This document shows positions 3,404 to 7,135 of a DNA stretch of 64,000 bases, piece after piece. The position numbers were made by a program, and so were the translations under genes. Under the pieces are notes generated by a model that was given only the letters and a program-made list of their open reading frames with translations, searched no databases and was not told the DNA's origin. Within the stretch, counting starts at the first letter, position 1, and the number at the start of each line of letters is the position of its first letter. This DNA is from Planctomycetota bacterium. Lineage in GTDB: Bacteria > Planctomycetota > Phycisphaerae > UBA1845 > Fen-1342. The stretch is from positions 62,001 through 126,000 of the forward strand of contig JAHJAR010000277.1 of assembly GCA_018814045.1 (NCBI GenBank). The letters are read 5' to 3'.

Positions 3404-4285
3404 CTACTCCACGCTGACGAATTTGCGGATGTTGCGTTCCAACTCGGCGACGGTGAAGCGGCCGTTGAGGTCGAGCGGTAGAAACACGCCGTGGGCGTGG
3501 TCGCTGGCCAGGATGATCATGCGGCCCACGACTTCGTAGCCGGTCTCCTGGGGCGTGTGTCCGACCAGGAAGAGCTGGGCATCGAAGCGTTTGGCGTAGA
3601 TTTCGACGACCTCGGGATGGTGGTAGCGGCCCCAGACGAGGGCGTAGGCAGATCCGCCTGGCATCAGGTCTTCGGCCGTTGGTTTGCGCAGAAAGACCGA
3701 ATCGTCGAACGAATGCATCATCACGCGGTCGGGCAGGCTGTGGCTGATGAAGATGCCGTTGCTGGTGCGGGCGGCGAGGGGCAGGGCCATGATGTATTCG
3801 TTCAAGGCGGCGAGGACGTTGTCGGTGTCCTTGCCGTAACGGGCGTGCACGCCGCGCTCGAAGTCGTGCAGCACTGAGCGGCCGCCTTTGGTGATCTCAT
3901 GGCCGCACATCTGGGACAGCTCGTGGTTGGATTGCAGGAAGAACACACTGTCGGGGAAGTCGCACTTCCAGCGTGCGGCACGCACGAGGAGATCGATCGA
4001 GAAATCCGGGGCACCCGGATACTGGGGCTCCTCGTGAATCAGCTCGTGCAGCACGACGCGGCGGGCGGGGCTGCGCTCGAGTGCGCAGAAGCGTTGCAGC
4101 TTGTCGAAGTTGCGTGTGTTGCCGTGCATGTCGCCGGTTACGACCAACTGCCCGGCGGCGCCGAAGCTGAGCAGAGAACCTTGGCGGTCGGGATCATCGC
4201 GGATCAGCTCGGCGGCCTCCTGCAAAGCCTGGCAGGCTGCTCGCGCATCGGGGGTTTCGTTCACGCCGTCCTCTACCGTTCTCAC
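3404..4285 (-). CDS. Calcineurin-like metallophosphoesterase
   Basis: A 293-residue protein of the calcineurin-like phosphoesterase superfamily. Visible motifs are 'VVTGDMHGN' (GDxHG), 'QSNHE' (NHE), 'IFISHS' and 'FLVGHTP' near the C terminus, in the order expected for a PPP-like fold. The second metal motif, normally GDxVDRG, is replaced by 'VVLHELIHEEP', so one metal ligand must come from a different side chain or be absent. It lies 41 bases downstream of a Ser/Thr kinase gene on the same strand, which suggests a kinase/phosphatase pair acting on the same substrates. The family is firm; the substrate is not known. Confidence 0.8.
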   Translation of the reverse strand: MRTVEDGVNETPDARAACQALQEAAELIRDDPDRQGSLLSFGAAGQLVVTGDMHGNTRNFDKLQRFCALERSPARRVVLHELIHEEPQYPGAPDFSIDLLVRAARWKCDFPDSVFFLQSNHELSQMCGHEITKGGRSVLHDFERGVHARYGKDTDNVLAALNEYIMALPLAARTSNGIFISHSLPDRVMMHSFDDSVFLRKPTAEDLMPGGSAYALVWGRYHHPEVVEIYAKRFDAQLFLVGHTPQETGYEVVGRMIILASDHAHGVFLPLDLNGRFTVAELERNIRKFVSVE

Positions 4286-4326
4286 CCTGACGAGTACCTC
4301 ACTTTATTCGAAGCGGTATCCCGGCG

Positions 4327-5214
4327 TCAAAATCCGCGCGCCCCCGGACTATCCCGCGGGGGGACGGCGTTGCCGGGCTCCTTTTCCTGTAGGTGGCGAA
4401 CCAGCTCGAGGCGCGAGATGACCTGCGCCATGTCCCAGGGCCGATCGTTGGGCAGTGTTTCACAGCACTCCATGATCAGACGTGAGAGCGGGATGGGGAT
4501 GGCCGGGTCGAGCAGGTGTGGTGGGTCGCTGCCGCGCCGGGATTCGAGCTCGATCTTCTTGGCGGCCGCCGGCGCGGTCGGCATCATGGTCTTGAACTCC
4601 TTGCCGGTAAGCACACAGTACATCGAGGCCCCGAGGCTGAAGATGTCGGTGCGCTGGTCGATCGGCTCACGTTTGACCTGTTCGGGAGCCATGAAGGCCG
4701 GTGTGCCCTGGACGCGTTCCTTCCGGTGGCCGAGGGGGCAACTTTGGCCGAAATCGATGATTTTCAGGCCCCCCTCTCTGGCGAGCAGCACGTTGCGGGG
4801 CTTCATGTCGGCGTGGACGTACCCGTGCTTGTGTACGGCCTGCAAGCCCTCTGCGACGTGAATGAAGATCTCTATGGATTCGCTGAGCATCCGTGGCACC
4901 TGATGCTCGAGCGCCTCGCCATCGACATATTCCATCACCAGGAACAACTGCCGCGTCTTGAGCCACTTGCGAATGCGGACGAGGTCATAGCAACGCCGCA
5001 GGTAAGGGTGATCGAGGGCGTGGGAGACCTCGTATTCGTTCTCGGCCTGCACCAGGAAGCGATCGTCATCGGGGCCCTCGCGCACCACGTGCTTGATGAC
5101 GACTCGCTTGCGCGAGCTGCGCTCGATGGCGAGGCTGATCGTGGAGCCCGCGCCGCGCCCGATTCGGTTCAGCAACTCGTATCCCGATAGCAGCGGAAGA
5201 GAGCGGGGAGGCAT
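4327..5214 (-). CDS. Serine/threonine protein kinase (Hanks type)
   Basis: A 295-residue soluble kinase when started at the ATG at 5214; upstream in-frame starts reach 5337 but add a basic stretch without domain similarity. Kinase landmarks are the Gly loop 'IGRGAGSTISLA' (residues 18-29), K41 in 'VVIKHV', the catalytic loop 'VHADMKPRNVLL' with D136, 'DFG' at 154-156, and 'FMAPEQ'. The HRD arginine is alanine, so it is a non-RD kinase, usually not dependent on activation-loop phosphorylation. There is no transmembrane segment or extracellular sensor, unlike many PknB proteins. The phosphatase gene follows directly. Confidence 0.88.
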   Translation of the reverse strand: MPPRSLPLLSGYELLNRIGRGAGSTISLAIERSSRKRVVIKHVVREGPDDDRFLVQAENEYEVSHALDHPYLRRCYDLVRIRKWLKTRQLFLVMEYVDGEALEHQVPRMLSESIEIFIHVAEGLQAVHKHGYVHADMKPRNVLLAREGGLKIIDFGQSCPLGHRKERVQGTPAFMAPEQVKREPIDQRTDIFSLGASMYCVLTGKEFKTMMPTAPAAAKKIELESRRGSDPPHLLDPAIPIPLSRLIMECCETLPNDRPWDMAQVISRLELVRHLQEKEPGNAVPPRDSPGARGF

Positions 5215-5361
5215 TGCTCTGCTGTCGATGACTAAAAAAACGCCCCGGCGCAGTTCCGAGACGGTGGCCTTGTGACTGATCCTGAGCGTTTCGGCGAGTG
5301 CCCAACAACCGCGCCCACGCGTCGGCACGCGAAACACCCGTATACGCCAGTGCTCACAATT

Positions 5362-5865
5362 CTACGGGATGATCCGCTTGCGAGCCAGCAGTTCGCACAA
5401 GTCGTGCGCTTCCGGCGGGAGCTCGGGGCGGCGCCGTGCATCTGATTCGGGGAGCAGGCGGACCCGGTTCAGATCCAGCCCGCGTAGTTGCTTCATGCTG
5501 CCCAGCACGGCCAACAGCGTGTTGGCCTGCGCTTCGGACAGGTGCTGGCTGGTCGAACCGGCGACCGCCAGTCGAATACTGGAGCCGCGCGGTTTCCAAT
5601 CCCAATCCCCGTCGTCGTAGACGATGCAGTCGTACATTTCGGCGGGGAGCGGAGCAGTGGGCGGCACGTAGTCGATCGCGACCTCGTGCACGCGTGTTCC
5701 CCGCTCGGCCATCAGGAGCGTCGTGGGCGACCACCCGCGCGTCGTGGGCTCCAGCCATAGCAAAAGTGCCGCCCCGACCGTCATTGAGACGGTTAGAGCG
5801 ATGACGACCTTTGCGTTGCGCGTATCGGCAGCCATGACCAGTCCTTTGGCTGCTTGCTTGGGCAT
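5362..5865 (-). CDS. Single-pass membrane protein, possibly a degenerate amidase/PGRP fold
   Basis: About 167 residues when started at the ATG at 5865, which has GGGGAGCAGGG just upstream. One transmembrane helix near the N terminus ('VVIALTVSMTVGAALLLWL') is followed by an extracytoplasmic domain. The order of elements 'YDCIVYDDG...', 'IRLAVAG', 'LSEAQANTLLAVL' and a C-terminal 'RVRLLPES' resembles the core of peptidoglycan-recognition/amidase_2 domains. The usual zinc-binding His residues are not seen, so any such domain would be non-catalytic. This relationship is a weak pattern match; otherwise hypothetical. Confidence 0.55.
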   Translation of the reverse strand: MPKQAAKGLVMAADTRNAKVVIALTVSMTVGAALLLWLEPTTRGWSPTTLLMAERGTRVHEVAIDYVPPTAPLPAEMYDCIVYDDGDWDWKPRGSSIRLAVAGSTSQHLSEAQANTLLAVLGSMKQLRGLDLNRVRLLPESDARRRPELPPEAHDLCELLARKRIIP

Positions 5866-5968
5866 CCCTGCTCCCCAGTAATTACCGGACCGACGGCGAG
5901 ATTGCAAGTCCTGATCCACGTTTTCGGCGCGCACCCCAGCGTGTGGTGGGCTGGGGCGACCTCCTCAT

Positions 5969-5974
5969 TATACT
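5969..5974 (+). promoter_or_regulatory. Possible -10 box of a leaderless transcript
   Basis: TATACT ends 6 bases before the ATG of the TPR gene at 5981, so a transcript starting about 7 bases downstream of it would begin at the start codon. No Shine-Dalgarno sequence is visible. No good -35 was seen. Confidence 0.25.
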
Positions 5975-5980
5975 ATCGGC

Positions 5981-7135
5981 ATGATCGCGCCGTGTGTGCA
6001 CCATCTTCTGCTGTTGCTGTCGATCGCGGCTTGCCTGGCGCCAGCGCCCGCGGACGTCGTCAAACTCGTTGACCGGCCGGCCTTCCGCCGCGTTGCGATC
6101 ACGAACATGAAGGGGGCGCGGCTGATTTTCCGAGGCGTGAGCGGACAGTACCTCCGCGAGCCGCTCGCCGAGGTCGAGTGGATCGAGATCGATCGAGTTG
6201 AGCCGCTGGGCCGGGCCGAGCACGCGGCCGCGGCGCAGCAATGGGAGCAGGCGGTCGCCGCCTACGAGCAGGCGTTGGAGCAGGCTGGTCCAACGTGGCT
6301 GCGCGAGCTGATCAGCGTGCGTTTGGTGCGGGCGAGTGACCAGGCGGGGCGGTTCACCGACGCCGTCGGGCTGTACGTCGAATTGCTGAGCACGCAGCCC
6401 GAACTAGCCGGAAGCCACGTACCCCGCAACCCGGGGCCACCGGGCTCGCGCGTCAACGGCGCGGCCCGGGAGCGTCTGGCTGAGGCCATCGGGCTGGCGG
6501 GAAATCCGCAGGTCCGGGCAGCTTGTCGGGCGCTATTGCTGGAGATGCAGCTCTACGACGAGGTGTTTGCCGAGTTGCCGGAGGTACGTCGGCAGGCGGA
6601 AGGCGGCCAGAGGCTGATATCGCGGCTGAATGAGACGTCGCCGGCTTCACGGCCGGCCGGCGGTGCGGGGCTGGCGAACGCCGGAGTCGCTGACGGCCGG
6701 CCAGGCAGAAACCCGGACCTCCGCGCGCGGGGGGGTTCAGATTCGGCGCTGCTGTTGCCGCTCGAGTCGATCGTCCTGGTGGCCGCCCGGAAGGCACTCG
6801 CCCAGGGTGACGCGGGGCGCGCGGGGCGGCTGGCCGAGCACGCCTGGCCGTACGTTACGGCGCGCGAGCGTGACGAGTGGCGGATAGTGCTCGGGCGTTG
6901 CCGGATTGAGCAGGGTCGCCCGGCCGAAGCGGCGGCCGACCTGGTGAACCTGGCGGAGTCAACCCGGAACCGGGCACAGGCGGCGGAGGCGCTATACTAT
7001 GTCGGCTTGGCGCACGAACGACTGGGTCGAACCGACGTGGCGACTGCGCTCTATCGCGAGTTGGCGGCCGGCGCAGATGTGCCCGAGCTGTGGAAGGCCC
7101 AGGCCCGGGCGAGCCTGCGGCGTATCGGAGAATGA
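5981..7135 (+). CDS. Secreted TPR-repeat protein
   Basis: A 384-residue protein with a signal peptide at residues 1-25 ('HHLLLLLSIAACLAPAPA'), a short beta-rich N-terminal part ('VKLVDRPAFRRVAITNMKG'), then tetratricopeptide-like helical pairs from about residue 85 ('AAQQWEQAVAAYEQALEQA') to the end ('GLAHERLGRTDVATALYREL'). TPR proteins scaffold protein complexes, here probably outside the cytoplasmic membrane. Residues about 215-255 are a Pro/Gly/Arg-rich, highly GC-rich insert that does not fit the repeats. The stop is 3 bases before the miaB start, so the two genes are probably cotranscribed. Confidence 0.75.
   Translation: MIAPCVHHLLLLLSIAACLAPAPADVVKLVDRPAFRRVAITNMKGARLIFRGVSGQYLREPLAEVEWIEIDRVEPLGRAEHAAAAQQWEQAVAAYEQALEQAGPTWLRELISVRLVRASDQAGRFTDAVGLYVELLSTQPELAGSHVPRNPGPPGSRVNGAARERLAEAIGLAGNPQVRAACRALLLEMQLYDEVFAELPEVRRQAEGGQRLISRLNETSPASRPAGGAGLANAGVADGRPGRNPDLRARGGSDSALLLPLESIVLVAARKALAQGDAGRAGRLAEHAWPYVTARERDEWRIVLGRCRIEQGRPAEAAADLVNLAESTRNRAQAAEALYYVGLAHERLGRTDVATALYRELAAGADVPELWKAQARASLRRIGE

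Follow-up and report, generated by a model that had tools for sequence, protein, structure and literature searches.

Our analysis of the window, the 64,000-nucleotide stretch of DNA under study, points to a three-gene system that may act as an envelope-coupled phosphorylation switch. It would comprise a one-helix membrane protein with a decayed amidase/PGRP-fold ectodomain, a separate cytosolic non-RD serine/threonine kinase and a calcineurin-like phosphatase with an altered second metal motif, and would work much like a PASTA kinase whose parts are split among several proteins. We assign this reading a probability of about 0.5; it builds on the observed gene order, conservation and co-occurrence and on the residues that have been kept or lost. 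The recurrence of the three genes across the class suggests an uncharacterised signalling route from the cell surface to the interior. The relevant features are as follows.

3404..4285, minus strand: calcineurin-like (PPP-related) phosphatase, 293 residues, with motif II of the form [HQ]ExxH; Pfam Metallophos, E 1.1e-5; PP1 nearest by profile
4034..4045, minus strand: altered motif II of the phosphatase, residues E81-L-I-H84, aligning with PP1 LGDYVDRG; E81 and H84 in 88 of 88 homologues
4327..5214, minus strand: predicted cytosolic Hanks-type Ser/Thr kinase, non-RD, 295 residues; Pfam Pkinase, E 1.2e-40; catalytic residues present, no membrane segment
4807..4815, minus strand: HAD replacing HRD in the kinase, residues 134-136; never Arg among 84 family members
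5241..5263, minus strand: terminator-like hairpin with a T7 tail, separating the kinase from the membrane-protein gene; 2 sites against 2.5 expected by chance
5362..5835, minus strand: one-helix membrane protein with a putative decayed amidase/PGRP-fold ectodomain, 157 residues; helix mean hydropathy 2.32
5746..5820, minus strand: conserved membrane segment R-N..V...L...SMTxGAxLLxLEP; six of the eight best-conserved columns at residues 6-25

The genome from which the window derives is fragmented, measures 5.5 Mb and is 95% complete. Two samples were used for comparison, a close set of 61 related genomes, searched for the phosphatase and the kinase, and a broad set of 392 genomes of the phylum, which includes the window's own genome, 40 other members of its class and 351 genomes from outside the class. 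Kinase matches were accepted at E ≤ 1e-40 among the 61 relatives and at E ≤ 1e-38 in the 392-genome set, the latter cut-off having been chosen after the gap to the following match (1.4e-36) was seen. For the 61 relatives, the presence tables of the two genes were joined by eye. A search of viral contigs found no relative.

A phosphatase family with an altered second metal motif

By sequence, the window phosphatase can be placed in the calcineurin-like phosphoesterase superfamily (PF00149; 26.4 bits against a curated cut-off of 21.5, E 1.1e-5), which is matched by 28 of 28 family members at E values of up to 0.1. It carries the motifs GDMHG and SNHE as well as H182 and GH243, in agreement with the GDxHG, NHE and GH motifs listed in the initial annotation of this region. 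The same annotation had placed HELIHEEP where GDxVDRG is expected, and profile alignment bears this out, with the family sequence LhEliHee standing opposite LGDYVDRG of PP1. Across 88 aligned homologues, D52, H54, E81, H84, N120, H121 and H182 are invariant, H243 is present in 87 and E122 is replaced by Asp in 12. Motif II reads [HQ]ExxH in all 88 sequences, the first His being exchanged for Gln in 30 of them. As E81 and H84 never vary in this set, the change appears to be a fixed trait of the family that reflects neither chance nor degeneration. We rejected the idea of a degenerate, non-functional phosphatase, given that every metal-site position is retained in the 88 homologues, and likewise that of a zincin-type HEXXH motif in HELIH, of which only the Glu and the final His are invariant and which aligns with motif II of PP1. 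An AlphaFold model, made from the window protein and two related proteins only, had a mean pLDDT of 39 and was not used.

In PP1, the GDxVDRG motif supplies the bridging Asp, the second Asp and a phosphate-binding Arg. The family described here shares with the PPP phosphatases (PP1, PP2A, calcineurin and bacterial PPPs) the D-x-H and N-H-[ED] motifs and two further, C-terminal metal His residues, but its motif II has Glu in place of the bridging Asp and His in place of the second one, and the phosphate-binding Arg is lost. Because GDxVDRG is replaced in all homologues, we class the enzyme as PPP-related rather than as a PPP, even though it has the GDxHG and GNHE motifs of that group. A Glu at the metal position of motif II is also found in the YmdB-type calcineurin-like phosphodiesterases, whose Fe site consists of Asp8, Glu39, Asn40, Asn67, His150, His175 and His177, according to an excerpt of the published account (PMC10406935). 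However, the Glu is followed by Asn in YmdB and by x-x-His here, and family scans of the phosphatase gave no match to a YmdB family.

When a profile built from 28 homologues was compared with solved structures, PP1 and other protein phosphatases of the PPP group came out nearest (best 1.6e-8). This argues against the unlikely alternative that the protein is an ApaH-like hydrolase of Ap4A or an alarmone, tied to the kinase through stress physiology. Such an activity would fit the diadenosine tetraphosphatase 2qjc, which is found among the PDB matches at 5.6e-5, and the NCBIfam ApaH matches seen in 4 of 28 family members; yet the latter are weak (best 3e-4), and the window protein itself does not match the ApaH equivalog. 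Moreover, the phosphatase elsewhere in the phylum adjoins genes for FHA-domain proteins, including an FHA kinase (L109, L114 and L181; the FHA domain of L114 was read by eye), and these neighbours favour phosphoproteins over nucleotides as its substrates.

The likelier start of the phosphatase gene is the GTG at 4264, seven codons downstream of the listed ORF start, because AGAGGA stands upstream of it. The distance to the kinase gene would then be 62 bases instead of the 41 bases between the listed ORFs, which the initial annotation had correctly given for two genes on one strand, here the minus strand.

A cytosolic kinase without the RD arginine

The kinase retains the Lys, Glu, HxD Asp, Asn, DxG Asp and APE motif of Hanks-type kinases and can, on these residues, be counted among them. 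In an alignment of 28 sequences, K41, D136, N141, D154 and A176-P-E178 are invariant and E60 is present in at least 90%. Its nearest solved relatives are bacterial PknB kinases (4eqm, 2.2e-43; PknB 3f61, 5.6e-39), and against the PknB equivalog NF033483 it scores 145.6 bits, compared with a curated threshold of 450, over the kinase domain only and without a helix, which sets it apart from the PASTA kinases. The absence of a membrane anchor and the replacement of HRD by HAD had both been pointed out before; both observations hold. The protein has no hydrophobic segment, its best 19-residue Kyte-Doolittle mean being 0.98, and the Arg of the HRD motif, which most kinases carry and which defines RD kinases, is missing throughout the family (84 of 84 members). 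Pattern matching identified the middle residue of HxD as Ala in 55 of these proteins, Thr in 12, Cys in 10, Gly in 3 and Ser in 2, and the remaining two were read by eye as HAD. Eight of the nine other kinases encoded in the same loci have HRD; the ninth lacks a readable motif.

A FastTree phylogeny was built from the 84 kinases of the family plus 8 RD kinases. The linked and unlinked kinases of the class fall together in a clade of 30 tips (support 0.87), and the eight kinase paralogues of the order group separately (support 0.99); support for the deep root of the family is weak (0.34). Activation-loop phosphorylation is thought to be unnecessary for non-RD kinases, as stated in an excerpt of one published source (PMC8463890). 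Hence, the autophosphorylated kinase is not an obvious substrate of the phosphatase, and control through a partner protein is plausible. In one related genome (G028:C256:9459-11459), a tandem pair of kinase copies lies upstream of the phosphatase.

Co-occurrence and gene order

Among the 61 relatives, the phosphatase is found in 56 genomes, as a single copy in each (G007 gave a weak partial match and G025 a fragment at a contig end), and the kinase likewise in 56. Both genes are present in 55 genomes, neither in 4 and only one in 2 (G007 and G017; Fisher p 5e-5). Of the 55 genomes with both, 48 have the kinase directly upstream of the phosphatase and in the same orientation, the seven exceptions being G006, G015, G025 (contig end), G043, G046, G049 and G058, the last four of which have a diverged kinase paralogue only. 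The initial annotation had proposed a kinase-phosphatase module of planctomycetes and named a failure of the two families to co-occur in other genomes as the finding that would overturn it. They do co-occur, and the proposal is supported by this distribution.

The broad set yielded the phosphatase in 81 of 392 genomes, namely the window's own, 39 of the 40 other class members and 41 of the 351 genomes outside the class. The kinase was detected in 39 of 40 and 7 of 351 genomes, respectively, with a partial match at 4e-35 in G311. All seven kinase-bearing genomes outside the class also have the phosphatase, compared with a background of 41 in 351 (hypergeometric 1.8e-7, with genomes treated as independent of kinship). 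The pair reading is limited by the wider range of the phosphatase family (41 versus 7 of the 351 genomes): 34 of the 41 phosphatase genomes outside the class contain no family kinase, so that the phosphatase evidently has a life of its own. Within the class, the two genes are adjacent in 19 and unlinked in 20 of the 39 genomes with both (including the partial kinase of G311), the unlinked cases belonging to families f11, f12, f15 and f16. This frequent separation and the wider range of the phosphatase count against a common switch. Outside the class, kinase and phosphatase are adjacent in three of the seven genomes (family f46: G091, G135 and G153). The fetched loci include 88 that hold the phosphatase, and wherever a locus holds both genes, the kinase precedes the phosphatase on one strand (52 of 52).

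These data also bear on the possibility that there is no functional link at all and that three old housekeeping genes have stayed in synteny through slow rearrangement. In its favour, several families retain all three genes although these do not lie together; but linkage recurs across families and, with f46, outside the class while the surrounding genes change, which makes this explanation very improbable. The downstream IspH gene was considered as a further part of the module and rejected, its cluster occurring in only seven loci, all from the window's family.

A membrane protein encoded upstream of the kinase

The pair reading is further limited by a third, membrane-anchored component (5362-5835), which the initial annotation had missed. 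Clustering of neighbouring genes picked out one type of gene that precedes the kinase. Its product in 19 loci of the class (cluster c2) consists of a membrane helix and, after it, an Amidase_2 domain, detected by Pfam at 1e-10 to 1e-15 in all five amidase-type genes scanned. The 157-residue window protein has no Pfam match; it and its family carry a helix of the same style. When all ORFs of the fetched loci were searched with a profile of the 19 amidase-type genes, another 27 matched, each of them situated directly upstream of a family kinase and the window's own at E 4e-4. Without the helix, the profile found mostly intermediate forms. In hhalign comparisons, the window group and the amidase type matched at 96.3% over the full length and at 76.2% for the ectodomain only, and the ectodomain homology is weak once the helix is left out (76% and 46%). 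Because much of the profile signal resides in the helix, homology between the window protein and its amidase-type relatives is well supported over the whole length, and the relation of its ectodomain alone to the amidase/PGRP fold is only suggestive.

The amidase-type profile matched solved structures of amidases, T7 lysozyme and animal PGRPs, among them PGRP-LF (2.7e-5) and PGRP-LC (9e-4). Of the three zinc ligands, the first His is kept in 19 of 20 amidase-type proteins and the second in 10; the third position is occupied by Ser in 12 and by Asp in 3. Just two proteins have all three ligands and 18 lack at least one, so that, as a group, these relatives do not appear to be catalytic Amidase_2 enzymes. 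In PGRP-LB, an engineered Cys-to-Ser exchange at the third-ligand position removes the zinc, according to an excerpt of the published study (PMC8124813). Together with the ligand losses, this suggests that the amidase-type domain is mostly a pseudo-enzyme. In the window group, 8 alignment columns are conserved in at least 90% of the 25 sequences, and 6 of them fall at residues 6-25. Selection thus seems to have kept the helix and tail in the window's family while the ectodomain eroded, a decay so advanced that peptidoglycan binding is doubtful there. Of 43 membrane proteins, 36 have more Lys and Arg on the N-terminal than on the C-terminal flank of the helix and 7 have equal numbers, and the tail is therefore predicted to lie in the cytosol with the kinase.

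A whole-genome search found a relative of the membrane protein in 59 of the 61 related genomes. In the class sample, full-length matches (E ≤ 7e-64) occur in 29 genomes, all of them class members by manual count; ordinary amidases begin near E 1e-50 and are mostly domain-only matches. The gene lies upstream of the kinase in just 47 of 84 kinase loci, all 47 being seeds of the final profile, and is unlinked in several families, which counts against the proposed switch; in families f7 and f8, it is mostly found away from the kinase.

A clearly less probable reading than the switch, though one to be taken seriously, is that kinase and phosphatase form a plain cytosolic pair and that the membrane gene is a frequent neighbour with a separate role in the cell wall. 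Within the order, no other linkage is as tight as that of kinase and phosphatase (48 of 55), families f13, f14 and f8 keep the pair together without such a membrane gene upstream, and the hairpin at 5241-5263 precedes the kinase in the window and counts against a single transcript, with the number of such sites at chance level. However, a plain pair does not readily explain why every one of the 27 non-seed profile matches lies upstream of a family kinase, nor why the membrane gene follows the kinase rather than the phosphatase where the two separate (15 of 18 loci with the phosphatase elsewhere; L151-L166, L176 and L178).

A putative switch and its relation to known systems

In the three-component switch that we favour, the type-II membrane protein would serve as a receptor or anchor. 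Its tail, short and positively charged, would lie in the cytosol, and its conserved helix would lead to a periplasmic domain of the amidase/PGRP fold whose zinc site is mostly lost. The separate non-RD Ser/Thr kinase would be the output enzyme, recruited or switched via the helix and tail of the membrane protein rather than by autophosphorylation of its activation loop. The PPP-like phosphatase, in whose motif II Glu and His probably take the places of the bridging and the second Asp, respectively, would dephosphorylate the targets of the kinase and thereby reset the switch. Physical interaction, ligand binding, a shared substrate and the direction of signalling are what we infer for this arrangement.

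Kinase-phosphatase switches tied to the cell wall are already known in the form of the PASTA kinases (PknB/PrkC), whose partner phosphatases (Stp/PrpC) are PP2C enzymes. Common to both systems are a Ser/Thr kinase linked to a periplasmic, wall-related domain, by hypothesis in the present case, and a partner phosphatase. In contrast to the PASTA systems, the ectodomain here belongs to a separate amidase-fold protein, the kinase is non-RD and lacks a membrane helix, and the phosphatase is calcineurin-like. PASTA domains bind wall fragments, as reported in excerpts of two sources (PMC5786024, PMC4478028).

The animal receptors PGRP-LC and PGRP-LF are membrane proteins with a non-catalytic PGRP domain and thus resemble the amidase-type proteins in combining an amidase fold that lacks zinc ligands with a single membrane helix. 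They differ in that the proteins described here are bacterial and linked to a kinase gene, with the window member too decayed for Pfam. It is tempting to speculate about a split pattern-recognition receptor kinase, in which a zinc-less, PGRP-like pseudo-amidase reports wall fragments through its helix to the separate non-RD kinase and the ExxH phosphatase resets the system; we regard this more specific version as rather doubtful. Similarly tentative is its corollary that the receptor of the window's family retains the signalling helix but no longer has a wall-binding site that can be recognised. Plants and animals likewise combine pattern-recognition receptors with non-RD kinases, and such a system would have arrived at a similar pairing by convergence.

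Phycisphaera have been reported to possess no or very few Ser/Thr kinases, in a survey of planctomycetal kinases whose excerpted text mentions neither non-RD nor HRD motifs (PMC11032199). Despite this reported scarcity, the present kinase was found in nearly all of the sampled class members, and it is accompanied by a phosphatase and a membrane partner of its own. Should the link prove genuine, the three genes would form a phospho-switch that connects surface and cytosol and belongs to the core equipment of a bacterial class; its building blocks would be a pseudo-enzyme ectodomain and a metallophosphatase active site that is as yet uncharted. Within the titles and opening parts of abstracts in the open-licence section of PubMed Central, we found no description of a trio of pseudo-amidase, non-RD kinase and ExxH phosphatase. 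The system is small enough to be rebuilt in vitro.

Other gene neighbourhoods in the phylum

Several loci show further arrangements of the two enzyme families. In L109 (4908-6848), a gene of the FHA-GAF-sigma54 activator type directly follows the phosphatase, and a similar gene occupies the same position in L114 (7284-9284); in both genomes, the family kinase is unlinked or was not found. L181, from outside the class, contains a gene for an FHA domain joined to an RD kinase (4191-7000, minus strand), which the frame of the ExxH phosphatase overlaps by 19 bases. An ECF-sigma-like gene (cluster c19, named by eye) lies divergently beside the phosphatase in L102, L105, L112 and L113, where the kinase has moved away. 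The phosphatases of one branch (L128, L129, L131, L135, L137 and L138) read ADLHG instead of GDLHG, and five of these six adjoin a conserved divergent neighbour (c20), of which the one scanned had no Pfam match. Finally, family f8 (L143, L144 and L145) has a canonical calcineurin-like phosphoesterase (DxH, GNHD, GHTHGG) directly upstream of a diverged HAD kinase paralogue, an arrangement that represents a second pairing of a kinase with a metallophosphatase.
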